This document shows positions 2,509-35,091 of a stretch of 45,156 bases of DNA, piece by piece. The notes below the pieces were generated by a model. The model worked only from the letters and a program-made list of their open reading frames with translations, searched no databases and was not told the origin of the DNA. Numbering within the stretch: the stretch's first letter is position 1; the number at the start of each line of letters is the position of its first letter. The position numbers were made by a program, and so were the translations under genes. This stretch comes from a virus, in IMG/VR virus record IMGVR_UViG_3300028127_000008, positions 1 to 45,156 of that record; one strand, given 5' to 3'.

Positions 2509-2830
2509 AATTGTTTTAGAGCCTGCAAGAAATGGTGTTATCAAAAGAGTGATTGACGATAATCATGGTGGAGGTAGAGAACAATGGACCTCGACCGATG
2601 TATATGAATCAAATGATGAGCATAGAAATAAATATGAATACATCATGCGATTCTTTTGGGAACTTTGCGAAGACATAGGATTAGAGTGCGGTAACAAATT
2701 TGAAAAAGATTGCTTACGGATCAAAACTGAATGGGGTACTCACTATGAACCTAACCAAAAAGAGGTGGATAGTAAAATAAGAGAACTCCAAGCAGAGATC
2801 GATTTATTGAAAGAATGGAAACAGAAATAG
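2501..2830 (+). CDS. Hypothetical protein, 109 aa
   Basis: I do not recognise the family. The N-terminal part looks like a short beta segment (MVKIVLEPARNGVIKRVIDD), followed by an aromatic and charged helical region (EYIMRFFWELCEDIGLECGN) and a C-terminal heptad-like helix (VDSKIRELQAEIDLLKEW) likely to form a coiled coil. No export signal is present. It overlaps the preceding gene by 8 nt and the following gene by 16 nt, so it belongs to one translationally coupled cluster. Function unknown. Confidence 0.65.
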   Translation: MVKIVLEPARNGVIKRVIDDNHGGGREQWTSTDVYESNDEHRNKYEYIMRFFWELCEDIGLECGNKFEKDCLRIKTEWGTHYEPNQKEVDSKIRELQAEIDLLKEWKQK

Positions 2831-3204
2831 AATTTAATTTTATATACTCTAAGGATGCAATAAAAGTAAAAAAGTTTTTAGGCAGTGTACCAAGAAATAT
2901 TGAATGTATAAGTTATATGGATATTTTTAACAAGCTTACAAAAAATGACTTTTATCAATATGAACCGTCTGATGCCGTAGTATCATCTTACTTAATGAGG
3001 CAGTTACAGACAGTCTTAGGTAGGAACACTACAACTTCTATTTTTTATGTTTTAGGAAATCTTAATAAAGGAACTATAATTGGTGTAAAAAAATATGTAG
3101 AATCTTTAACTGATAGGGCTATATATTATAACATATATCATTCACCTGATATTAATGTAAACGGTACGGCTGAATTATTTAAAGATGCTGTAGAGTTTGA
3201 ATGA
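2815..3204 (+). CDS. Hypothetical protein, 129 aa
   Basis: Unrecognised soluble protein with a mixed alpha/beta composition. Its start lies 16 nt inside the previous gene and its stop overlaps the next start as ATGA, which supports this reading frame and start. Visible segments include IEFNFIYSKDAIKVKKFLG at the N-terminus and SSYLMRQLQTVLGRN in the middle. No catalytic motif, metal-binding cluster or membrane helix is seen. The operon context only says that it is made with its small neighbours. Confidence 0.6.
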   Translation: METEIEFNFIYSKDAIKVKKFLGSVPRNIECISYMDIFNKLTKNDFYQYEPSDAVVSSYLMRQLQTVLGRNTTTSIFYVLGNLNKGTIIGVKKYVESLTDRAIYYNIYHSPDINVNGTAELFKDAVEFE

Positions 3205-7662: not shown

Positions 7663-9024
7663 ATGGCAGATCCAGGTATTTGGAACCAAGAACCACCAGA
7701 GGAGCTAGCTAACTTAGCTAAAAACTTTCAAAAATCATTTCCTAATAGTTATGACTTTGCAAAGACGTTTGTGCAAACTGCATCTTCTGCTGCTGGTGGT
7801 GGTAATGGTGTAACTAGTTTAGATGATCCAACATACCTAGGTTTTAATGTTAGGTTTGATCCTATGTCACCACTATTTGAAGGCGCACTAGAAGGTAGTC
7901 CTGCTATTCCTGCTGGTGTAGATCCATTAACATTTCAAGGAGGTGATGCTAATAATTTAGGTTCTCATCCTTCTGGTGAATCTGCTGTTGGGTATCTGAA
8001 TAATCTAGGTGAAGTTACAAGGGCTACATATTTGAAAGCTTTCTGCCAGGGTCTTAGAGAAATACAAACAAAAAGACCTTATTATTTTCAGACAATAGAA
8101 GGATTACAAGAAGCTTTTAATAAAACGGTTAATATGACACCGTATGGTGGAAGCGCTGAAGGTGAAGGAATCACAGTAGGTTGCCTAGAGGCAATAGATT
8201 TAAAAATGGCTGCAATATTTAATCTTTATAAAGCTGCATGTTATGATGTTAAATATAGAAGAAATCTTTTACCTGTAAATTTAATGTATTTTACATGTTA
8301 TGTTGATGTTGTGGAAGTAAGAAAATTTAAACAAGTTAGAAATTTTATAAATGCCCTCAATCCTCTTTCACCAGAACCAGAACTTAGTAAATTTGTAAAT
8401 GAAAACTTTTCAAAGATAACTTTAAAATTTGATGAGTGTGTTTGGGACGCTACTGCCAGTGGGCAAGTTTTTGCAGATGTTACTAATGTACAAGGTAGTG
8501 GTGCTATGACTACGTCATCTATAAAATGGTCATACGGAAGAGTTGAAATACAATCACAATTTGCTGGTTATGATTCTGCATTAATTGATTCAGCAAATGT
8601 AAAACCTAAAACTTTTGGTGATTTAGCAAAAGCAGCAGGTAAAAAATTATTAGATAAAGCAATCCAAGGAGCAGAGAATGCAATCCAAAGAAAGGCTTTA
8701 AGTTTTGTACAAGGTTTAAAGTTTGGTAATGTATATGGCTTAAGAAACCAAGTTCTGAATACCATTAAAAATCCACAAGGTTTATTAAGTACTCTACAAG
8801 GTGCCTTGGCACAAGAAGAAACTACACCAGGATTTGTTGACCCACTTGGTGCTAATATATTTGAAGGAGAGGCTGAAAGAATTGGTGGTAGTACACAAAG
8901 TATAGAAAGTAATAATATCTTTCCAGAAGAAGATGACATTTTACCATTACAAAGCAGCAACATATTTGGAACTCAGCCATCAGGGCCTACTCCATTACAG
9001 AGTAGTAATATATTTGAAGATTAA
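7663..9024 (+). CDS. Tube-initiator-like baseplate protein with NIF-repeat tail, 453 aa
   Basis: Residues 205-310 have the strand pattern of tail-tube-like proteins: LPVNLMYFTCYVDVVEVRKF, FSKITLKFDECVWDATASGQ and IKWSYGRVEIQSQFAGYD. The gene lies between hub and spike genes, where tube-initiator or hub-cap proteins are expected (gp48/gp54-like in T4). The C-terminal 60 residues look disordered and contain four copies of a short motif, Asn-Ile-Phe at residues 398-400, 418-420, 433-435 and 449-451, two of them preceded by PLQSS. These look like docking motifs for a partner. A central helix-rich stretch (KAAGKKLLDKAIQGAENAIQ) links the two parts. Assignment to a specific T4 gene is tentative. 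Confidence 0.5.
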   Translation: MADPGIWNQEPPEELANLAKNFQKSFPNSYDFAKTFVQTASSAAGGGNGVTSLDDPTYLGFNVRFDPMSPLFEGALEGSPAIPAGVDPLTFQGGDANNLGSHPSGESAVGYLNNLGEVTRATYLKAFCQGLREIQTKRPYYFQTIEGLQEAFNKTVNMTPYGGSAEGEGITVGCLEAIDLKMAAIFNLYKAACYDVKYRRNLLPVNLMYFTCYVDVVEVRKFKQVRNFINALNPLSPEPELSKFVNENFSKITLKFDECVWDATASGQVFADVTNVQGSGAMTTSSIKWSYGRVEIQSQFAGYDSALIDSANVKPKTFGDLAKAAGKKLLDKAIQGAENAIQRKALSFVQGLKFGNVYGLRNQVLNTIKNPQGLLSTLQGALAQEETTPGFVDPLGANIFEGEAERIGGSTQSIESNNIFPEEDDILPLQSSNIFGTQPSGPTPLQSSNIFED

Positions 9025-9027
9025 TAT

Positions 9028-9933
9028 ATGGGAAAATTAACAACAAAGGATTTAAAAGATGATAATCTTAAAGGTACGCAATGGATTGGTATAGTTGAAA
9101 ATACTGATGATGATATCTTTGAAGGCCGATGTAGGATTAGAGTTTTTGGTAAAATGGACCAGAGAGAAGATCCAGAAGATCCAAGTAGTGCTTACATAAT
9201 GCCAACTGAATCTTTACCTTGGGCAAGACCATCAGTAGCATCTTCAGGTGGAAGTAACAGTGGAAGTGGTACCTTTTCAGTACCTAAACTAGGCACGATA
9301 TTAAGGATAACATTTGACAATGGTAATTATTATTCTCCTGTATACCATGAGTCACTATACCCTTCTGATGAGACTAAGGCGGAGATAGAGGCGGCTTATC
9401 CTAATTCACATGTATTAATATATGATACAGCATTTGGGTTAACAGGGGATCTACAATCTGGTGATCCTGAAGTTACTAACGAAAGGGAGGGGGAACATAT
9501 TAAAGTTTTCTTTACAGAAGAAAAAGGCTTAATGATGGATTACACGACAACAGAAGGTCCAACAACAGTAAATATAAAACCTGATAATTCAGTTGAAATA
9601 ATAAATGCAAATGGAGATTCAATTGTAATGCTTAATGATGGAAATATAACATTTACTCATTCTGCTCAGTTTACAATTAATAGTGGTGCTAATACTGAAA
9701 TTAATTGTGAAGATGCAATAATTAATTGTACTAACACCGTTGTAAATCATGCCTCATCTATTGAATTAGGACAAGGTGCAGTTGAAAAGGTAGTACTAGG
9801 AGATACATTTATGGCTCTATTTAATAAGCATACTCACATTGGAAACTTAGGGGCACCGACATCTCCACCACCAGCAACCGGTAATGCAATGACTGCAAAT
9901 GAATTAAGCCAAAAGCAAGTTAAAACTCTATAA
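9028..9933 (+). CDS. 5: Baseplate central spike protein (gp5/gpV-like, no lysozyme)
   Basis: Residues 15-115 form the OB-fold of phage spike proteins: QWIGIVENTDDDIFEGRCRI, ESLPWARP, VPKLGTILRITFDNGNYYSP. Residues 185-260 are short repetitive strands (VEIINANGDSIVMLNDGNIT, AQFTINSGANTEINCEDAII) typical of the trimeric beta-helix needle. Near the C-terminus, KHTHIGNLGAPTSPPP contains an HxH pair (His268, His270) like the metal-binding tip of P2/Mu-type spikes. The T4 gp5 lysozyme domain is absent: the OB-fold passes straight to the needle. The protein punctures the outer membrane during contraction. It lies 3 nt after the tube-initiator-like gene. Confidence 0.8.
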   Translation: MGKLTTKDLKDDNLKGTQWIGIVENTDDDIFEGRCRIRVFGKMDQREDPEDPSSAYIMPTESLPWARPSVASSGGSNSGSGTFSVPKLGTILRITFDNGNYYSPVYHESLYPSDETKAEIEAAYPNSHVLIYDTAFGLTGDLQSGDPEVTNEREGEHIKVFFTEEKGLMMDYTTTEGPTTVNIKPDNSVEIINANGDSIVMLNDGNITFTHSAQFTINSGANTEINCEDAIINCTNTVVNHASSIELGQGAVEKVVLGDTFMALFNKHTHIGNLGAPTSPPPATGNAMTANELSQKQVKTL

Positions 9934-9945
9934 ATATATAAATTA
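9932..9945 (+). promoter_or_regulatory. Candidate late promoter (AAATATATAAATTA)
   Basis: A NAATATATAA-type sequence overlapping the stop of the spike gene and starting 28 nt before the ATG at 9960. Confidence 0.35.
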
Positions 9946-9959
9946 ATAAAACTAAAAAC

Positions 9960-10289
9960 ATGGCATTAGTAAAACCTGTATTAGATACCGCTCTAACAAA
10001 TACATTAAATGCAGCATTTGCAGCAGCAATGACTGACTTCGTTACTGTTATTAAAGCTAGCCCTGCAACCGGAAACGATTCCGAGGCTATAAATTTAACT
10101 GCTGCAATAGCATCATCGTCATTAGTATTTTCTAATTTAGCAGGACCCGGTATTTCTACTGCTGTCGATGCATACATAAGGTCACAAACATTAATTGTGC
10201 CACCAGGTCAACTTGTAACAACCGCAGGTTCTGCTGTTGCTCAGGCTGGTGCAACATCCGCACCTTCACCACCAATTCCTGTTTTATAA
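9960..10289 (+). CDS. Small Ala-rich protein next to spike gene, 109 aa
   Basis: The family is not recognised. It is rich in Ala, Thr, Ser and Val. The first 70 residues look helical (LDTALTNTLNAAFAAAMTDF), followed by a segment (VDAYIRSQTLIVPPGQLVTT) and a Gly/Pro-containing tail ending SAPSPPIPVL. That Pro-rich ending resembles the GAPTSPPP tip region of the neighbouring spike protein. There is no clear signal peptide, although the N-terminal half is fairly hydrophobic. Its place directly after the spike gene suggests a minor baseplate or spike-associated component. This is inference from context only. Confidence 0.6.
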   Translation: MALVKPVLDTALTNTLNAAFAAAMTDFVTVIKASPATGNDSEAINLTAAIASSSLVFSNLAGPGISTAVDAYIRSQTLIVPPGQLVTTAGSAVAQAGATSAPSPPIPVL

Positions 10290-10338
10290 TCTTAAACTAT
10301 TTAATATCTAAAGGTATAATAATTAAATCTAAACCGAG

Positions 10339-10350
10339 TAATATATAATC
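10339..10350 (+). promoter_or_regulatory. Candidate promoter region before the S1-domain gene
   Basis: A TAATATATAATC sequence begins 39 nt before the ATG at 10378. An AAGGTATAAT box lies a little further upstream at 10311-10320. The 88-nt gap is one of the longer ones here, suggesting that the S1-domain gene has its own control, possibly by two promoter types. Confidence 0.4.
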
Positions 10351-10377
10351 TATAATAACACTCTTAATAAAAAAATA

Positions 10378-11550
10378 ATGAACGAACAAGAAATCACCAT
10401 CCAATTAAGTGATGATCCATTTGACACTAAAGTAATTAAAGTTAAAGTACCTAAGGGAACTAAGTTAATGTCAACCGAGGCATATTCTGCTGATGTGTTG
10501 GATATGTATGATATGAGCGATGAAGATGCTAAAAAGCTTCAAATGTCAGAAGAGAATAATAATTATATTACTCAAGCCGAGATTGCTTATATTAAAAAAG
10601 AAATACAAATTGTTGAAGGTGAAGAAAGAGAGGTCAAAACAGAGGCACTGGTTGACATATCTAGAAAAAATACAGCTGTATGTATTTTATCAAAAGAAGA
10701 TCCGGATATAGTAGAACAATTAGAGGTTGGGATGATAGTAGATATTAAAGTTAAACATTCTAAACAAGGTACCTTATATGCTTCTATTAGTGATGCATTA
10801 GACGAAGTTAAACGTAATGAAATTTATAATGCCATTGGAAATAAAACTATTGGGTTTACTGGTAAAGTAAAAGAACTTATTCATGGTGGTTACTGGGTAG
10901 AAGTAGGCGGTGTTGAATGTTTTATGCCAGGTTCATTAGGCGGTTTAAATAAACTGCATAACTTTGAAAAATTAGTAGGTAAAGAAATTATCGTTATGCC
11001 TATAACTTATTCTAATGAAAAACAAACCATTGTCGTTTCCCATAGAGAATATCTAAGAACTATGATACCTTCTGCTGTGGAAAATCTTAGAGAAAATATT
11101 AAAGAGCATGTAACTGGGTTTGTTACAGGTGCAACTAAATTTGGTATATTTGCTGAATTTAACGATTGCTTAACCGGATTAATTCCTAAAAATGAATTAG
11201 ATGAATCTACATTAGAGAAGTTTAATAATAGAGATATTAAACCAGGTGATGAAATTGATTTTTGGACTAAAGAAATAATTTCGGAAAGAAAAATAATACT
11301 TAGCCAAACCGGACCTAAGATAGATTTATGGGATGGTGCTGATGAGAAATACAAACCTATGATGGTCACTGAAGGTAAAGTTACTAAAGTTACTAAGTAT
11401 GGCGCATTTGTCGAATTAGAAAAAGGTATCAGTGGTCTTATTCATAAAACTAAACTTAAGAATACTGAACTTACAAAAGGCGACCTTGTAAATATTAAAA
11501 TTGGTAGTGTGAATGTTAGTGATCGCAAGATTACAATGAACTTAGTATAA
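10378..11550 (+). CDS. S1-domain RNA-binding protein (ribosomal protein bS1-like), 390 aa
   Basis: Three S1 (OB-fold) domains are visible. The first is at about residues 158-225 (GFTGKVKELIHGGYWVEVGG, VECFMPGSLGG, TIVVSHREYL). The second is at about 244-312 (HVTGFVTGATKFGIFAEFND, LTGLIPKNEL, KIILSQ). The third is at about 333-390 (TEGKVTKVTKYGAFVELEKG, ISGLIHKTKL, KITMNL). A more diverged S1-like segment may lie at 90-150. The layout matches bacterial ribosomal protein S1, which recruits mRNA to the 30S subunit, but is shorter than the six-domain host protein. The N-terminal 80 residues are acidic and unique. It could favour phage mRNA translation, protect RNA or act in antitermination. It interrupts the tail gene block and has its own upstream promoter-like motifs. 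Family assignment is firm, role inferred. Confidence 0.85.
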   Translation: MNEQEITIQLSDDPFDTKVIKVKVPKGTKLMSTEAYSADVLDMYDMSDEDAKKLQMSEENNNYITQAEIAYIKKEIQIVEGEEREVKTEALVDISRKNTAVCILSKEDPDIVEQLEVGMIVDIKVKHSKQGTLYASISDALDEVKRNEIYNAIGNKTIGFTGKVKELIHGGYWVEVGGVECFMPGSLGGLNKLHNFEKLVGKEIIVMPITYSNEKQTIVVSHREYLRTMIPSAVENLRENIKEHVTGFVTGATKFGIFAEFNDCLTGLIPKNELDESTLEKFNNRDIKPGDEIDFWTKEIISERKIILSQTGPKIDLWDGADEKYKPMMVTEGKVTKVTKYGAFVELEKGISGLIHKTKLKNTELTKGDLVNIKIGSVNVSDRKITMNLV

Positions 11551-11555
11551 CATCC

Positions 11556-11588
11556 ATCCTGGTTTGGAATATATAAACAAATCAGGAT
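11556..11588 (+). promoter_or_regulatory. Inverted repeat flanking a candidate promoter
   Basis: ATCCTG at 11556-11561 and CAGGAT at 11583-11588 are perfect inverted 6-mers, and the GAATATATAA motif lies between them. This could be an operator or a weak hairpin. The arms are short, so chance is possible. Confidence 0.25.
11567..11580 (+). promoter_or_regulatory. Candidate late promoter (GAATATATAAACAA)
   Basis: It begins exactly 26 nt before the ATG at 11593, the spacing seen for several other copies of the motif. Confidence 0.5.
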
Positions 11589-11592
11589 AAAT

Positions 11593-12891
11593 ATGTATTC
11601 TAACGAACAACTAAATGCTATACATTCTTCAAAGATAGGTTTTGAATTTGAGTTCTTTTCAAACGAAAACCTTGATCTTACTAAAGATAGTTTAGCACAA
11701 ACCTTAAACAAGTCAATTAGAGTAGAAGAAAAAGCACATAGTGACTTTATACCTACTCAAGATATTTTTAAATTAGAACCAGATAACTCCGGTGGTACTG
11801 GAATGATTGAGTTAGTAACCGGTCCACTACCTTTTGTTGAAGCCAAATTAGTTATGGCTAAAACTTTAAAATGGATTAGAGAAAACGGTAAGACTAATGA
11901 AAGATGCTCTATTCATATAAACATTGCGTTTGATGGAAAAAAGTTAGGACCTATTGTTAATATGTCAAAATTAGACGTAGGTAAATTTGTACTTAACTTT
12001 GATGAAAACAAAGTATATGAAGCCTTCCCAAACAGAAGAGATTCTGTTTATGCAAAATCTATAAAGTTTATTGTACCTTTAAGTGGTATGACTCAACCTT
12101 CACCAGAAAAAAATCTTTGGAAAAACTATATGTTTGTCAAAGAGAAGTATTATGGTATTAATTTTGAAAAGCTACAAAAAGGTTATATTGAATTTAGATA
12201 TCTTGGTGGTGCTGATTATGAAAAGAGGTATTCTACAATACTTTCAATGACCGAACATTTTATTACTTCATTATATGAAACTTTAGTTAACCCAAAATAT
12301 AATGAATCTGATTTAAAGGTTTTGGATAAGATTTTAGAAAAGCATAAAACTGTTATTGAATCTTACCGAACATATTCTTCATTTAAAGAAAAATTTCCTA
12401 ATGTTCATTTAATGGTTGATCTTCAAACATATGATCAGCTTATTGAAATGTATTACCCTAAAATTAGAGAAAAGATTTTTGATTTAATTACTAGGGCTGA
12501 TATGAATGAAGGTTTAATCAATTACGATAGTGATACCGGTAGAATTCAGATTAAAGATGCTAAGTTAATGAGATGTTTTGAAATAAACGGTGTTGATATT
12601 GTTGATTCAGTTATCCAAGGAAATATAGTTAATTGTGATATCTTTGGTTGTGACCTTAAAAACGCGTCAGTATTTGAATCTAATTTATTTGGGGCTACTA
12701 TAGCCGAAGATTGCAAAATAGAAGAATCATATGTTAGTAGAAATGTAATATGTGAAGATAGTTATGTATTTGGTAAAAGAGGCGTTTTTAGTGGTGAAAT
12801 GGTTGGTGGTATTTTTAGACAAGGTAGAGCAACAGGGCTTGCGAGGTTTAGTGATAAAACTGAAGTAATTGAAATAGAAAAAATTAAATAA
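11593..12891 (+). CDS. Amidoligase (glutamine-synthetase-fold) with pentapeptide-like C-terminus
   Basis: The first 210 residues carry the hallmarks of the Amidoligase_2 family of COOH-NH2 ligases: IGFEFEF (Glu18, Glu20), DNSGGTGMIELVTGPLPF (Asp64, Glu73), RCSIHINI (Cys105, His108, Asn110) and YIEFRYLGG (Glu200, Arg202). Family members use ATP to join a carboxyl to an amine, forming peptide-like bonds on small molecules or proteins. Residues about 325-420 consist of short repeats such as VDIVDSVIQGNIVNCDIFGC, then LKNASVFESNLFGATIAEDC, resembling a pentapeptide-repeat or beta-helix domain that may bind the substrate. A helical linker lies between. No protease or cyclotransferase partner is adjacent. 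It sits between the S1-domain gene and wedge genes under its own promoter-like motif. The family call is good; the substrate is unknown. Confidence 0.7.
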   Translation: MYSNEQLNAIHSSKIGFEFEFFSNENLDLTKDSLAQTLNKSIRVEEKAHSDFIPTQDIFKLEPDNSGGTGMIELVTGPLPFVEAKLVMAKTLKWIRENGKTNERCSIHINIAFDGKKLGPIVNMSKLDVGKFVLNFDENKVYEAFPNRRDSVYAKSIKFIVPLSGMTQPSPEKNLWKNYMFVKEKYYGINFEKLQKGYIEFRYLGGADYEKRYSTILSMTEHFITSLYETLVNPKYNESDLKVLDKILEKHKTVIESYRTYSSFKEKFPNVHLMVDLQTYDQLIEMYYPKIREKIFDLITRADMNEGLINYDSDTGRIQIKDAKLMRCFEINGVDIVDSVIQGNIVNCDIFGCDLKNASVFESNLFGATIAEDCKIEESYVSRNVICEDSYVFGKRGVFSGEMVGGIFRQGRATGLARFSDKTEVIEIEKIK

Positions 12892-12895
12892 AGAT

Positions 12896-13747
12896 ATGTC
12901 AAATAAAAGTTGGTGTAACCCAGATTCACAGGAATGCTTAGACGCGCTAATCAAAGAAATTAATGATGACTTAACAGTAGGTTGCCAAATACCTTTTACA
13001 GTACCTAAAAAAGAGTTGGCTCATATTATTAATAGAGCCAAAGATTATTTTTATAAAATATATGAAGATAGTGTAGAAGAAATGTATATTGCATTACCTA
13101 AGTCTGCTTGGTATGAAAAAGATTTTAGGCAAGGCGTTAGTCATAGTAACGGTAGTAATAAATTAACAGAGAAGGATGTAAACAATCCTAGGGGTGTTGT
13201 AAAAATGCCTTCAACCGTTTGGGCAGTTAATAATGTATTTCAAATAAATGGATTCTCTGGTGAAGATGGTGGCTTTGGTGATAACTCATTTTCTGCAGGT
13301 GATCCGGATTTTTCATTAGATAAGTTTATTTACTCTGATGTGTATGGTGCTGGTATTGGATCCGAAGAATTAATGTACTATGTAATTAATTCTAAATTTA
13401 TAGATAATGCAAGACAAGTTTTACAGGCTCAGATATCATACAATTATAATAGACTAACTAAAAAGTTTAGATTTATGGGGGAGTTACCAAATAAAGGTGC
13501 ATGCATATTTCAGGTTTATAATACTATTCCTGATTGTGATCTTTTTCAAGATGAGGCTTTTATAAGATACTGTATAGGTATGGCTAAAATACAATTATCT
13601 AGAATATTAGGTACATTTCAATTTAACTTACCTGGTAATATTACTATTAATTATGATTTGATATCTAGTGAGGGTAGAGAAGAAGTTGATGCTATCGTTG
13701 AAGAAATAAAAGGTGATGAAGGTGTTGATTATTTTTTCACAGGATAA
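12896..13747 (+). CDS. Virion structural protein, possibly neck/connector or wedge, 283 aa
   Basis: I cannot name the family securely. The protein is soluble, with a helical N-terminus (CLDALIKEINDDLTVGCQIP, then ELAHIINRAKDYFYKIYEDS), a beta-rich centre (VVKMPSTVWAVNNVFQINGF) and a distinctive end: FIRYCIGMAKIQLSRILGTF followed by FNLPGNITINYDLISSEGRE and EEVDAIVEEIKG. That end, a helix then a strand then an acidic helix, resembles connector or neck-type phage structural proteins. Its place 4 nt after the amidoligase gene and before gp25 and gp6 shows that it is expressed with baseplate genes. Start chosen at the first ATG after the preceding stop. Confidence 0.5.
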   Translation: MSNKSWCNPDSQECLDALIKEINDDLTVGCQIPFTVPKKELAHIINRAKDYFYKIYEDSVEEMYIALPKSAWYEKDFRQGVSHSNGSNKLTEKDVNNPRGVVKMPSTVWAVNNVFQINGFSGEDGGFGDNSFSAGDPDFSLDKFIYSDVYGAGIGSEELMYYVINSKFIDNARQVLQAQISYNYNRLTKKFRFMGELPNKGACIFQVYNTIPDCDLFQDEAFIRYCIGMAKIQLSRILGTFQFNLPGNITINYDLISSEGREEVDAIVEEIKGDEGVDYFFTG

Positions 13748-13778
13748 TTTATAATCTAAGACCCTCAAAAAATGTAGA

Positions 13779-13793
13779 GAATATATAATAAAA
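13779..13793 (+). promoter_or_regulatory. Candidate late promoter (GAATATATAATAAAA)
   Basis: It starts exactly 26 nt before the ATG at 13805 and is the best match to the consensus. It would drive the gp25-gp6-gp7 wedge block. Confidence 0.55.
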
Positions 13794-13804
13794 GAATATT
13801 CTCC

Positions 13805-14170
13805 ATGATTAAAGAAATATACAGTAGAGACATAGATGCACCGAAGTACAATGATGACGTCATTGAGGTGACTGATCAATTACAACAGCTTATCCTTAAG
13901 ATAGAGAATTGTTTGTTTACAAGACAAGGTGATGTACTAGGTTCTCCTAATATGGGATGTAATTTAGATGATCTTGTCTTTTCTTTAGTTTTAAATGAAT
14001 CTGTTATTTCACAAAAGATAAGTAGTCAGATTCAAACATATTGCTTAAATAGCAGCAGTTCACAGTTTGGAATTGATGTAAGAGTTCAATTTTTTAGTGT
14101 GACAGAGCGAAACGGTTGTTTGGTTGATATTTATGTAAATGAACAAAGGGTCATTGGGGCTTTGTTTTAA
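13805..14170 (+). CDS. 25: Baseplate wedge protein gp25-like
   Basis: A 121-residue protein of the gp25/gpW family, a conserved sheath-anchoring part of contractile baseplates. The core segment QLILKIENCLFTRQGDVLGS, followed by PNMGCNLDDLVFSLVLNESV, matches the family layout in which a helix leads into a loop and then a helix rich in Leu/Asp. The canonical Glu-Pro-Arg turn is replaced around GSPNMG. The C-terminal strands (GIDVRVQFFSVTERNGCLVD, then IYVNEQRVIGALF) complete the fold. Length is close to T4 gp25 (132 aa). The gene lies just before gp6, the usual order in myophages. The protein sits at the top of the baseplate, where sheath polymerisation begins. Confidence 0.75.
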   Translation: MIKEIYSRDIDAPKYNDDVIEVTDQLQQLILKIENCLFTRQGDVLGSPNMGCNLDDLVFSLVLNESVISQKISSQIQTYCLNSSSSQFGIDVRVQFFSVTERNGCLVDIYVNEQRVIGALF

Positions 14171-14189
14171 AATAAAAATAAAATAGTTA

Positions 14190-16046
14190 ATGTCATTTTT
14201 CAGTAAAACAAGAATAAAAGCAACAGAGTTATTTTTTGATGCTTTTCAATATTTACAGCGCCAGTATGATCAAGCCGGTGAAGTGTTTACGCCTGCATCA
14301 CCATTTGGGCAAATTCTTACCGTGGTTGCCAACTTAGGGGAACTTATTTTATTTTACATTGAAGCGGTTGGGACAGAGCTTAACATTAGCAGAGCAAGAA
14401 ATATAGAATCAATATACGGTTTATCAAGACTAACTGGGCATGATCCTACTAGAGGAATATCTGCGCAAGGTATAATTGGACTAAGATTAAATACATCTGC
14501 AGCCACATTAGTTGAAGGCGACTTTGTACAAATATTAAATTATGCTGAGCTAGAAATTGGACAAAATGGTCTAAGTTATTTTATTAAGTTTGATAGTGAT
14601 TATATAAGATTAGAAAAAACAACAAGGTCATTTGTTAATGTTCAATTAATACAAGGTATAATTGAAGATCAAAAATTTACCGGAACTGGTGAACCTTTAC
14701 AAAGCTACAATTTAACTACCAAAGACCCAACAGATCAATATATGGTTGATGTACATGTAGATGGTAAATTATGGAAAAATGTTAATTCTTTATATGACAT
14801 GAATAATGGCGAAGAATGTGTTATGATAAAAACTAGTGTTAATGGTGGCTTAACTTGTTTCTTTGGAAATAATCAATTTGGCCAACCTCCTGCATTAGGA
14901 TCTATAATAAAAGTTACTTATGTAAAGACCAGAGGATCTGCTGGTAATATTGGTGGAAAGAATTTAGATATGAAATTTAAAACCCCAGGAACAGATTCTA
15001 CAGGAGAAGAAATAGATCTTAATGAAGTGTTATCTTTAAACATTGTTCGTAATCCTATATTTGGTTCAGATAGCGAAGACCCTACATTTACAAGGTTAAT
15101 TGCGCCATACCAAAGTAATTCATTTGTATTAGCTAATCCTAATAATTATATTTACTATCTAAGTAAGTATGATTACTTTTCTTTTGTAGACGCATATAAT
15201 ACAAAGGATGATCAATATTTAGATGATGACAATATTATATACTTATTTTTAATACCGGATATTGCTAAAAAGATAACAAGTGATAAAGATTATTTTAGTG
15301 TTCCTGTAGATGAATTCTCAATGACACCTGACGAAAAAGAAATGGTATATGAAATTCTAAATGAAAGTGGCCGACAGATAGTTACTGCTGAAGTTAGAAT
15401 TAATGATCCTATAATTAAAAGGTATGCATTAAATATTGTTTTGAGATATGTTGAAGGATTTGATAAAGATGAAATTCATGCATCCATTAGAGAACAACTT
15501 AGTACTTATTTTATATACATAAACAGGAGAGATAGAATTCCAAGATCCGACTTAATTTCAATTATTGAAAACGTAGATGGTGTAGATTCTGTTAATGTAT
15601 TTTTTATATCCGAAGCTAATGAAAAGGCTATGGCCGATGGGTTTTATGAAATTCCTGTTTATGGCACAGATCCTGTAACAGATCAAAAAGTATTAATAGA
15701 AACCAAGAAGGTAATGCTTAAAGGTGATGAGGATCCTCAAATAGGATTAGATGAATTTGGTGATGTAATTATTGGCCCTGAAGATTTGGCTATTATAAGA
15801 GGTGGTTGGGATGATAGGAATGGAACTTTTTATGAAAGCATACCTAATAAGAATACAATAAGTTCTCTTAATATTTTCTTTAAAGGTACTATTCCAAATA
15901 ACCTTTATAATAAAACTCAACAGTCTAAGTTTCAAGATTTAAAAAGAACTAGAGGAACAACTATTGCAACATCAGGAAACTCAAGAAGTACAAATACTGG
16001 AAGGTTAAAAGATAACCCTACATTAAAAGCAATACAAGGAAAGTAA
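14190..16046 (+). CDS. 6: Baseplate wedge protein gp6-like (baseplate J family)
   Basis: A 618-residue protein with the organisation of T4 gp6 and Mu/P2 baseplate J proteins, which form the wedge ring around the hub. The N-terminus has helical segments (ATELFFDAFQYLQRQYDQAG, SPFGQILTVVANLGELILFY) and RARNIESIYGLSRLTGHDPT, the region that packs wedges together. A beta domain follows (GIIGLRLNTSAATLVEGDFV). Residues about 400-480 show the J-type end: RYALNIVLRYVEGFDKDEIH, then REQLSTYFIYINRRDRIPRS and IIENVDGVDSVNVFF. The C-terminal 70 residues are basic and probably disordered. It directly follows gp25, and its stop lies 1 nt before the next start. Confidence 0.8.
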   Translation: MSFFSKTRIKATELFFDAFQYLQRQYDQAGEVFTPASPFGQILTVVANLGELILFYIEAVGTELNISRARNIESIYGLSRLTGHDPTRGISAQGIIGLRLNTSAATLVEGDFVQILNYAELEIGQNGLSYFIKFDSDYIRLEKTTRSFVNVQLIQGIIEDQKFTGTGEPLQSYNLTTKDPTDQYMVDVHVDGKLWKNVNSLYDMNNGEECVMIKTSVNGGLTCFFGNNQFGQPPALGSIIKVTYVKTRGSAGNIGGKNLDMKFKTPGTDSTGEEIDLNEVLSLNIVRNPIFGSDSEDPTFTRLIAPYQSNSFVLANPNNYIYYLSKYDYFSFVDAYNTKDDQYLDDDNIIYLFLIPDIAKKITSDKDYFSVPVDEFSMTPDEKEMVYEILNESGRQIVTAEVRINDPIIKRYALNIVLRYVEGFDKDEIHASIREQLSTYFIYINRRDRIPRSDLISIIENVDGVDSVNVFFISEANEKAMADGFYEIPVYGTDPVTDQKVLIETKKVMLKGDEDPQIGLDEFGDVIIGPEDLAIIRGGWDDRNGTFYESIPNKNTISSLNIFFKGTIPNNLYNKTQQSKFQDLKRTRGTTIATSGNSRSTNTGRLKDNPTLKAIQGK

Positions 16047-16047
16047 T

Positions 16048-16317
16048 ATGAATAAATTTACAGAAAAAAGAAAAGGTATGCCTAGTGTTTATAAAGCAAC
16101 ATACGAAGAAGGATGGGAATTAAAAAACTTAGGTAATGACTATAATGAAAATTTAATGAGAAATTCATTTTCAAATTATATGTTCAGAAACGAGAGACTC
16201 TCAACCTTTTTAGATTCTTACTTAAAACCAATTATGACATTTTGGATTAATAAAGTAAAATATCTTAGAATTTATTATAACTTCGGTGTACCTAAAGATT
16301 ACCAAAAAATAAATTAA
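16048..16317 (+). CDS. Small basic/aromatic protein between gp6 and gp7-like genes, 89 aa
   Basis: Unrecognised. It is basic and rich in Tyr, Phe, Asn and Lys, with a mostly helical look (NENLMRNSFSNYMFRNERLS, TFLDSYLKPIMTFWINKVKY). No confident transmembrane segment: the most hydrophobic stretch, around PIMTFWINKV, is too short. The gene is spaced 1 nt from both neighbours, so it is part of the wedge operon. A role as a small wedge component or assembly factor follows from context only. Confidence 0.65.
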   Translation: MNKFTEKRKGMPSVYKATYEEGWELKNLGNDYNENLMRNSFSNYMFRNERLSTFLDSYLKPIMTFWINKVKYLRIYYNFGVPKDYQKIN

Positions 16318-16318
16318 G

Positions 16319-19300
16319 ATGGCTAACAATTGGCAACATTTAAATTTCTTTGACAAGAACGGTAAGTATTACAATTTTGATTATGATACTTCTGCTGATA
16401 AGTGGTCAGGTACGGTTTACTTACCTGAAGTTTCTATCGGCCTGTTTGAAGTTGGTCAACTATTTATATTAGAGGAATTTATTGATAAAGATACGAATAT
16501 AAAAAAATTCGGTTTCCCACATGGGATAGAAGTTGTAACAGGAACTAGTGGATCTACCAATGGGATTTGTAATTGGGTTGCTGAATGGCAAACATCCGAT
16601 CCTACTGAAATATTCTTATTTCAATTTAACATGGATTTTAATAGTGGAACACAAACATCTCTAGAAATAGAACCAGATGGACCACCATTAGAAATCATAT
16701 CAGAATTAGAAATACCTTTAGACTCAGATCCTAGTGAAACGGTTAGCCCAGAAGGTTATACGATTACCAATAAGATTACATCCGAAGCTTTACAGGTTAA
16801 TTTTGCGATTAGGTCAGAATCTGAGAATACATTTAAAAGAACTTTGTTAATTAAAGATGACTGCACAGGTAATGTTATTGCTGAGATTTTAGTATGGGGA
16901 GAAACTGTTGGTGAAGATGAACGGTTAAAAGTTATGACCGAGAATATGGGTTATAATATTTTAGAGTCTGACAGTATGGTATTTAGAGATACAAATATAA
17001 AAGAGCTATTACCTGATTTTGAAACTGTGAATTTAAAGAGAAAGGAAATAATGTTAGAAGGATCTAATATTTATCCTTGGATAGGTTCGTATAAAGGTCT
17101 AATAAATGCTATTAAGTTTTTCGGATATGATACTTTGCAAGTGAAGGAGTTTTGGAAAAATGTAGATGCTAATTCCCCACAATTTGGAAAGTATATACAA
17201 AGTAATAATATTGCTTTATTTGATCCTACTGTTCAATTTAACGATAAGTCAATTACACTTCCTAATAAAAGGTTTAGAAAAACTAGTTTATTCAGTTTAG
17301 TTTATAGAATCAATGAGATTGTACCAGACAGTTATGACTCTGAAGATTTACCTTTAACTGAAGAGAATTTTGATTTTACTATTGAAGAAATTTTAATTAA
17401 GTTATTTGGATTAAAGAAAAAATTAGAAAATGAATTTTTACCACTTAATGCCAGAATAAAAGATATAACAGGTGAAGCTGATTTTTTCGGTTTATTGGAG
17501 GTTACAAATACATTAAGTAGAAATGATAAGGCAGAAATTGTAGCAGGAATAGATACTAGTTTTAAGTTGTCAACCGATGATTGTATTTATATGGAAGATC
17601 TTAGGTCTTTTAGTTCTTTTTGTGTATCATCCGAAGCTATAGTTAATCAAGCAATAGTCAATTACTGTAATGCATATATAGCACCACTAACAACAGGTAT
17701 TGGTATTGGTCGTAATTTAGTTGCAGGACCTATCACAGCCAGCACTATTTACCCACCGCCTCCAATTGGCCCAGATTTAAATGGAATTTATGGATTACCT
17801 TTTGATGGTGGTAATGCAACGATAAATGATTTGGCTGATGCGTTTCTTGCATATTTTACAAGGTACTCGCCTGATCTTAAAAAGGTTGGTGCTTGGCCTG
17901 ATGGTGAGTCATCTTATTATTTGCCAGATAAACCAGGTATTCCTGTTGGTGCTATGACAGTATTAGAAAACGATTCATTTAATAATATAACTTGGGATAA
18001 TGTAGATTCAACATGGAATCAATTAAATGATGCTAATACCTTCTTTACTTTTGATATTGACCCACAAGGTGTGAATCCTGGTGATGTATTTATTGTTAAT
18101 GATCCGGATTCAAATACAGGTGCAACATACACTGCTATGGTTGGTGACACTGATACCGATGTGGTTAATGCTTTATTTAATCAATTAAAAACTCTTAAAG
18201 TTTCATTTATTGATCCTTGGGTATATTGGGATATTAGTAAAGAGAATGTTGTAACTGGGGACGTTGTTAGAATATTTGGACAAAATGTAGATAGATTAAA
18301 AGTTTCTTGTCAATCAGCGTTTGGTTCAGAACTTCTTTTTAATCAGCAGCCTGGAGAAACTTTATTTACATGGGACGGTATTGAAAGAGGAAACTTTGAT
18401 GAAATTGAATGGACTATTTATAAGGAAGAGACCGATATATCACCATCATATTATAAGGTATTCAGAGGACCTCTATCACAATATAATAAGTTGCCAATAA
18501 TACTACCGTATGTTGGAACATATAGTGTTGAAATGAAGCTATTTGATTTATATAACAATATTTCATCTAACGTTAAACCTGATTTTATTTGTGTAGAGAG
18601 TAGAGAGGTTGAATATTCTGGGTGGTACCAATCAAGAAAGTTAAACTATAGTTGGAATAGTGAATCAAAATATATTTGGAATGATTATGGTTCATTATGG
18701 GATTTGCCAATTACACCTGAAATTACATGGGATCAAGAAACTCCAAGTTTATATGAATCTCTTGATAGGGTAAATGCAATTTTAAATAACTTCGGTTTAG
18801 GTACATCTCCAAATTTTCAACTCTTAAACTATCAAGATGACGGTAAAGCTAGTTTTTCTGGTCCATATAGATGGGATAATTTAAATAGCGGTGGCTGGGA
18901 TGACACTTATCACTTGTGGTGGGACATGACTAGTACGACTGGTGATACTCCAGCATTTTTCCAATTCAAAGAAGTTGTCCCTGAAACATATTTAAGAATA
19001 ACAGACATTCATGGAATTACCGCTGAGCATTATTTTGATTTAAGCATAACGACTTTAGCTCAAGCCGCATCCAGTTTAAATGTCAGCACAAACAAAATTA
19101 TTAATAAGTATGTTTATAATGTTGTTTATGATGCATCCAGTAATCAGAAGTTTATACAAGCAGTATGTAGATATTTTGGGGTTCATGGTGATTGGGAGTT
19201 TATTGATATGGTATATGCCAATGGTGATAGAGTATGCCCATCAGGTGTAACTGGTTCGCCTTTCCCAACAGGATTTACCGGTTGCCCTAGTTTAATTTAT

Positions 19301-34069: not shown

Positions 34070-34312
34070 ATGACAAAAAAAGAAAAGAAAGAATTAACTG
34101 AATTTATTGACAAATACAAACAGATTGAAACATCTATTGATCTTATGCAAAAAAGTATTCTTAGCTTAGCAGAAAAGAGAGATGATCTATTTAATGATCT
34201 TGAAAAAATGAAAGTTAATGAAAAACAGTTTATGGATAAGCTAATAGAAAAATATGGAGAAAGTAATGTTACACCATATAAGTTATTACAGGTCTACGAA
34301 GAAGGATTATGA
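34070..34312 (+). CDS. Small coiled-coil protein, 80 aa
   Basis: Almost entirely charged helix with heptad spacing (KKELTEFIDKYKQIETSIDL, LAEKRDDLFNDLEKMKVNEK), so probably a dimeric or trimeric coiled coil. It has no membrane segment or cysteine. Its stop overlaps the next start as ATGA, and GAAGG lies just upstream of that start, so the membrane protein downstream is translationally coupled to it. The pairing suggests a soluble partner for the membrane protein. No family recognised. Confidence 0.65.
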   Translation: MTKKEKKELTEFIDKYKQIETSIDLMQKSILSLAEKRDDLFNDLEKMKVNEKQFMDKLIEKYGESNVTPYKLLQVYEEGL

Positions 34313-35091
34313 TAATTATAAAAAACATAATACAAATACTAACTGATCCTAAAAATACAAGAATGTTTTTATTAGGTGGTATTGTAGTGTTATTTATTTT
34401 ATTATTTAGACAATGTGAACAAACAAATATAGCAAAAGGAGAAGCTGTTAAAATTAGCAATAATTGGAAAGCATCATTAGATACAATTGAAAATTATATT
34501 GATAAGAATGGTAATGCTGCCGCTGAAATAAGAGCTCTTAATTTATCTATAGAAGAAATAGAAGGACAGTTAGAATTTGAAAAAGAAAAACCACCTATAA
34601 CTATTATTAAAACAGAAACGGTAATTAAAGAAGTTATAGTAGAAGTTCCGGTAGTTATATTAGATACAATTATAAATACCGTGGTTGGTGATTTTAATTC
34701 AGCCTTAACGTTTTCAGATAAAAAGGAATGGGGTAAAAGTTCTAGAATTATTGATGCTATAATACCTTATAAAACTTCTGATAGTCTTATATCATTCGGT
34801 AATGCTAATATAGGATTAAAGCAAAATATATTTTTAACTGCATCATTAACAAGAGATGTTAAAACAAAAGAATTATTTGTAAATCTTTTAACCGATTATC
34901 CTGGTACTACATTTAATAGTGCCGAAGGAATATTAATTGATCAAAAGAGTAAAGCATTTAAAGGTTTACAATATGAAAACAGAAAAACCATAGGTCTAGG
35001 TTTACAATTAGGCGTAGGTTTAACTGGAAATCAAATTAGCCCATACATAGGTATAGGTTTAAATTATACACCAAAGTTTTTACAATGGTAA
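34309..35091 (+). CDS. Membrane-anchored protein with C-terminal beta strands; spanin-like topology
   Basis: A 260-residue protein with one hydrophobic helix at residues 19-33 (MFLLGGIVVLFILLF) followed by Arg34 and Cys36. Residues 45-110 are helical and charged (AAAEIRALNLSIEEIEGQLE), then Val/Ile/Thr-rich strands (IKTETVIKEVIVEVPVVILD). The last 35 residues alternate hydrophobic and polar residues (TIGLGLQLGVGL, SPYIGIGLNYTP) and end in Trp260, like outer-membrane beta strands. An inner-membrane anchor, a periplasmic helix and an outer-membrane-type end would let one polypeptide bridge the envelope, as unimolecular spanins do at lysis. Similar proteins of unknown function occur in phages of Bacteroidota. 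Alternatives are a superinfection-exclusion or envelope-modifying protein. No endolysin or holin is seen nearby. Confidence 0.5.
   Translation: MIIIKNIIQILTDPKNTRMFLLGGIVVLFILLFRQCEQTNIAKGEAVKISNNWKASLDTIENYIDKNGNAAAEIRALNLSIEEIEGQLEFEKEKPPITIIKTETVIKEVIVEVPVVILDTIINTVVGDFNSALTFSDKKEWGKSSRIIDAIIPYKTSDSLISFGNANIGLKQNIFLTASLTRDVKTKELFVNLLTDYPGTTFNSAEGILIDQKSKAFKGLQYENRKTIGLGLQLGVGLTGNQISPYIGIGLNYTPKFLQW

Follow-up and report, generated by a model that had tools for sequence, protein, structure and literature searches.

A widespread amidoligase with a C-terminal solenoid, encoded beside the neck gene of huge phages, as a candidate modifier of virion proteins

The window analyzed here, a stretch of 45,156 nucleotides from the IMG/VR virus record IMGVR_UViG_3300028127_000008, carries T4-type baseplate hub, gp25-like, gp6-like and neck genes and, farther along, genes for a gp32-like binding protein and a UvsW-like helicase, which identifies it as part of a T4-like myophage genome. 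Within the tail region lies an open reading frame that a reading of the sequence alone had described as an amidoligase fused to a pentapeptide-like domain. The features of this region are listed below.

9028..9933, + strand: gp5-like baseplate hub protein (phrog_430, 3.5e-13)
10378..11550, + strand: S1-domain protein, bS1-like, the upstream neighbor (30S ribosomal protein S1 models, NCBIfam best 8.1e-41)
11593..12891, + strand: predicted amidoligase gene (ATG start, 432 aa, stop codon inside the coordinates)
11593..12297, + strand: glutamine-synthetase-fold catalytic domain, residues 1-235 (VIA-align against 4bax)
11638..11655, + strand: GFEFEF motif, residues 16-21, with E18 and E20 as predicted metal ligands (both invariant in 95 distinct relatives)
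11776..11829, + strand: EPDNSGG...ELVTGPL motif, residues 62-79, with E62 and E73 as predicted metal ligands (E73 in 95/95, E62 in 94/95)
11905..11925, + strand: CSIHINI motif, residues 105-111, with H108 as predicted metal ligand (His in 79/95, Gln in 16/95)
12190..12201, + strand: EFRY motif, residues 200-203, with E200 and R202 (both 95/95)
12499..12888, + strand: pentapeptide-like beta-solenoid, residues 303-432 (separate fold prediction, structure comparison and period test)
12896..13747, + strand: neck / head-tail adaptor protein, the downstream neighbor (phrog_211, 5.9e-11)
13805..14170, + strand: gp25-like baseplate wedge protein (phrog_43, 1.1e-3, and PF04965, 0.031; both weak)
14190..16046, + strand: gp6-like baseplate wedge protein (phrog_219, 5.6e-21)

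The reading frame and its four named motifs (GFEFEF, DNSGG...ELVTGPL at residues 64-79, CSIHINI and EFRY) were all located. A chance reading frame is excluded by more than 500 relatives in IMG/VR (107 in a first scan and at least 527 in a profile scan) and by the invariance of G16, E18, E20, E73, E200 and R202 in 39 aligned relatives. For close pairs, dN/dS was mostly 0.04-0.15 in the catalytic and solenoid parts alike, and only comparisons with the distant relative L052 exceeded this range; judged by these ratios, purifying selection is acting on both domains.

The assignment to the amidoligases rests on structure and profile searches together. An AlphaFold2 model built from 39 sequences had a mean pLDDT of 91, and its residues 1-235 aligned to glutamine synthetase 4bax in VIA-align with a Z of 12.6 and an rmsd of 3.2 over 182 residues, the listed rows being filled by glutamine synthetases and close ligases of that type. 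Foldseek gave 1.5e-5 to 8fbp, and the viral structure library BFVD returned named amidoligases with values of up to 1.1e-13, one of them from Agrobacterium phage Atu_ph07; the best full-length match there was A0A6J5PQ40 from an uncultured Caudovirales phage (TM 0.90, 25% identity). Against Amidoligase_2 (PF12224), the window protein scored 19.6 bits (E 9e-4), just below the Pfam cut-off of 22 bits. The family was matched by 28 of 39 relatives (E<=0.05, best 3.4e-9), and L167 (37.4 bits) and the Atu_ph07 protein (30.2 bits) clearly passed the cut-off. Failure of profile searches to recover the fold had been named as the outcome that would speak against an amidoligase; the fold was recovered. 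Kinship to glutamine synthetase is fold-based, because hhalign between the family profile and one glutamine synthetase sequence gave no link (prob 0.3). The window amidoligase had no match in NCBIfam, and PADLOC matched neither the amidoligase nor the S1 protein. Taken together, we consider it very probable that the gene product is an ATP-dependent amidoligase.

Across 95 distinct relatives, which range down to about 31% identity, residues E18, E20, D64, S66, E73, T101, K131, K185, N190, E200 and R202 were invariant, and E62 and R148 were kept in 94 of the 95. The expectation that the ATP- and metal-binding Glu residues are conserved thus holds for E18, E20, E62, E73 and E200 (94-95/95). Judging by the order of motifs in glutamine synthetase, not by coordinates, we take E20, E62 and E73 to form one metal site and E18, H108 and E200 the other, with R202 presumably serving the ATP phosphates. 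Loss of catalytic residues among homologues, the second outcome named as adverse, was found solely as a change of H108 to Gln within one clade (support 100/100; L059, L060-L062, L064, L066-L069, L071, L073, L075, L076, L078, L079 and L081), which keeps the other predicted catalytic residues. This clade possibly differs in metal use or activity. Those of its members inspected in the alignment carry about 50 extra C-terminal residues with a Lys/Gly-rich start, followed by an FPDRN/FPNRN-like motif.

The beta-helical, pentapeptide-like C-terminus foreseen from the sequence was likewise borne out. Modeled alone, residues 303-432 formed a beta-solenoid with a pLDDT of 96, whose strands repeat at five-residue spacing along part of its length. 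A five-residue period of hydrophobic positions was reached by only 7 of 5000 shuffles, while periods of 3, 4, 6 and 7 were not significant in the same test. The structural neighbors include designed pentapeptide-like solenoids, AlbG, HetL and MfpA; at Z 8-9.6, the designed solenoids, AlbG and HetL tied with pectate-lyase and autotransporter helices, so that the right-handed quadrilateral form is not singled out. No Pfam pentapeptide model scored above its cut-off in the window domain, PF13599 was reached weakly in three large-phage relatives (about 22 bits against a cut-off of 38), and a PDB sequence search with the C-terminus returned designed solenoids only. "Pentapeptide-like" is therefore a fair label. 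We infer that the solenoid would serve as a docking module on a protein partner.

Relatives at 31-41% identity sit in phage genomes of 462-735 kb. Those larger than 634 kb have been assigned to the Mahaphage clade, with Bacteroidetes as predicted hosts (PMC7162821). Relatives of the neck gene occur in Tenacibaculum, Chryseobacterium and Prevotella phages, and because of these two lines of evidence a Bacteroidota host is likely for the window phage. A weak host hint also comes from window positions 34309-35091, which match DUF6808 at 2e-5, just over the cut-off; we take DUF6808 to be a Bacteroidetes family. More diverged relatives without an alignable solenoid were found in Atu_ph07 and in Salicola phage SCTP-2, the latter with two adjoining diverged amidoligase-like genes annotated as hypothetical (L083 4999-8798). 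In LR756502.1, the amidoligase profile gave another, weak match (W02; 208756-208995 in record coordinates, E 1.4e-7, profile positions 165-247), which lies within a 368-aa frame and is a possible second, diverged amidoligase. A scan of 84,980 species genomes with three short patterns, which reaches fairly close relatives only, gave one match. A cellular origin was rejected for it: the contig also bears phage neck and tail-like genes and probably represents phage DNA within a Bacteroidota MAG.

The gene forms part of a tight block in the order bS1-like S1 gene, amidoligase, neck, gp25 and gp6, with 42 bases between the end of the S1 gene (11550) and the amidoligase and 4 bases between the amidoligase stop and the start of the neck gene (12896). 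The sequence-only reading had placed it between an S1-domain gene and baseplate genes, standing alone. The upstream S1 gene and the tail/baseplate setting hold, but the gene immediately downstream is a neck/connector gene (phrog_211) that precedes the baseplate genes; equally, no partner enzymes of the kind known for amidoligases adjoin the gene, but it belongs to a conserved gene string. The order from S1 to gp6 is common to many marine huge phages whose proteins are 30-40% identical, and the order of window genes from 7663 to 16319 is kept in divergent contigs with identities of roughly 23-43%. Within this stretch, the gene at 7663-9024 repeats an SNIF-like motif in its C-terminal tail (ESNNIF, QSSNIF, QSSNIF).

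In 87 of 99 distinct loci, the neck reading frame, relatives of which are annotated "neck protein" in PTm1, PTm5 and MA9V-2, starts no more than about 50 bases after the amidoligase frame ends. The association extends to larger genomes: among the four phages of 634-735 kb, three have the amidoligase close to tail or neck genes. Its distance from tail genes is about 0.4-2.5 kb in L085 and L087, and its distance from the neck and gp25 genes is about 2 kb in L086. In L167, the amidoligase lies directly 3' of a T4-neck-protein-like gene. A DHH-family phosphoesterase-like gene lies a short distance 3' of the amidoligase in L085 (13811-16111) and L087 (13796-15811). In Atu_ph07, about 2.6 kb separate the distant relative from the portal gene; with its gene number deduced from the portal being gp198, the relative probably falls within CDS 170-215, a cluster rich in virion proteins by mass spectrometry (PMC6102473).

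These data lead us to propose, tentatively and at somewhat less than even confidence, that the enzyme is a late-expressed ATP-dependent carboxylate-amine ligase acting on a neck or tail protein of the virion. In this model, the enzyme would be produced alongside the virion assembly proteins and docked on its protein partner by the pentapeptide-like solenoid. It would use ATP to convert a carboxylate into an activated acyl phosphate, which would then be joined to an amine in an amide or isopeptide bond, so that, as the particle is assembled, a neck, tail or baseplate protein would be cross-linked or would gain an amino acid or a peptide. A protein substrate is favored because the solenoid is conserved and biosynthetic partners are missing from the window. 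Several observations weigh against a virion substrate. Tenacibaculum phage PTm1, Chryseobacterium phage MA9V-2 and Prevotella phage Lak-A1 have homologous neck genes and no amidoligase match, which implies that the amidoligase is an accessory not generally needed for neck assembly. In the 735-kb phage, neck gene and amidoligase are far apart, and the closest recognized homologue of a window gene is about 9-10 kb from the amidoligase. A survey of the last four residues of the neighbors revealed no obvious conserved acceptor tail save in the small protein at 2815-3204, which in 89% of 19 distinct relatives has Glu as its last residue (V/I-E-F-E); this protein is a possible carboxylate donor or merely has a conserved end. 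The loss of His108 in one clade counts against an active enzyme throughout, and a place in the late block reflects co-expression and is no proof of a common substrate. A more specific version, in which a solenoid-aimed conjugating enzyme of the glutamine synthetase fold tags or isopeptide-cross-links neck or tail proteins (or the co-encoded S1 protein) at assembly, as a Pup-ligase-like step of morphogenesis, is conceivable although rather doubtful.

The conserved S1 gene, which the sequence-only reading had named just as a landmark, suggests another target, the translation machinery. The enzyme might modify the neighboring bS1-like protein, a ribosomal protein or a translation factor and so redirect host ribosomes, comparable to RimK, which adds glutamate onto S6. 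The S1 gene lies upstream of the amidoligase in 76 of the 83 distinct loci with upstream room, mostly within about 50 bases, and in one clade its stop codon shares bases with the amidoligase start codon, probably TTG, which suggests translational coupling. Its product matches rpsA models with best E-values of 8e-41 and 1e-37, yet far under the equivalog cut-offs, and we regard it on these scores as S1-like, not as a certified bS1. Huge phages with a possible rpS1 have also been reported to lack recognizable Shine-Dalgarno sites (PMC7162821). Against this target, four complete relatives of 634-735 kb have tens to hundreds of kb between the S1 gene and the amidoligase; in these and the Lak phages, S1-like relatives are located elsewhere in the genome, away from the tail block. 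Atu_ph07 and SCTP-2 have the amidoligase and no S1 match, Lak-A1 has S1 and no amidoligase match, and the S1 C-terminus was not conserved in the last-four-residue survey. Because the S1 gene is lost from the vicinity or not found in distant relatives and also occurs on its own in Lak-A1, we prefer a virion substrate over S1 or the ribosome and consider the latter unlikely. Across the 634-735-kb phages, we tentatively take the virion link to outlast the S1 link.

A third possibility derives from podoviruses, in which an amidoligase is encoded with a GATase, a gamma-glutamyl cyclotransferase, an ATP-grasp enzyme and a second amidoligase (PMC5498523). For phage amidoligases with such partners, a modification of the host wall or surface has been hypothesized that would act against superinfection (PMC5498523; PMC10580990), and the window enzyme could do the same late in infection. 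However, GATase_6 was not found in the whole genomes of seven large-phage relatives, and the cyclotransferase (3/7) and an R2K ATP-grasp (5/7) were unlinked to the amidoligase; six partial contigs contained no cyclotransferase. GATase_6 did match in three of six related contigs, all from the Gln108 clade. It was rejected as a partner, since the one inspected is asparagine synthetase B (L183 10745-12178, 477 aa, on the same contig as the amidoligase at a distance of about 30 kb). With these partners absent or unlinked, the cassette reading is disfavored and wall modification appears improbable.

Amidoligase families also include metabolite-making enzymes, and the protein might produce a small-molecule or peptide metabolite that plays no part in virion assembly, its late-block position being historical. 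No biosynthetic partner genes were recognized within the window and the conserved solenoid suggests a macromolecular partner, which makes this quite improbable. To the same low degree, we credit the idea that the protein kept only the fold, is inactive as an enzyme and serves the virion as a structural component or chaperone: its virion-gene neighbors and the well-supported Gln108 clade are in favor of this, but the remaining predicted catalytic residues show little or no variation over the 95 relatives, that clade included.

Many conserved genes of huge phages have no assigned role, and the amidoligase is both widespread (more than 500 related contigs) and strongly conserved, is enzymatic by every computed criterion and is held beside neck genes. 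If virion proteins are modified, this would constitute a covalent assembly step undescribed for tailed phages in the literature searched; if S1 or ribosomes are modified, it would be a new route to redirect translation. The enzyme family, its fold and its occurrence in phages are already known. The amidoligase-solenoid architecture, the S1-amidoligase-neck string and the Gln108 clade were not described in a limited literature search that covered papers outside subscription.

Compared with Amidoligase_2 (PF12224), the window protein shares the fold, the motif order and the conserved Glu, His and Arg residues, but falls below the curated cut-off, has the solenoid in addition and is encoded among virion genes. 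PafA and Dop, the Pup ligase and deamidase, have a glutamine-synthetase-like fold and act in protein conjugation via isopeptide bonds; the fold is common to the window enzyme, while no Pup-like partner was recognized; the survey of its neighbors' last four residues pointed to the Glu-ending protein at 2815-3204 as a possible donor. The podovirus cassette of phiEco32, RIO-1 and PSA-HP1 (PMC5498523) has a phage-encoded amidoligase in common with the huge phages, in which its other members, including the second amidoligase, are absent or unlinked. The amidoligase-like protein of Atu_ph07 (A0A2L0UZM1) and the tandem pair of SCTP-2 share the catalytic domain at 24-26% identity and likewise belong to large genomes, but have a longer N-terminal part and neither an alignable solenoid nor the S1 neighbor. 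The likeness to A0A6J5PQ40, named "Uncharacterized protein" in BFVD, extends over the full length of the structure.
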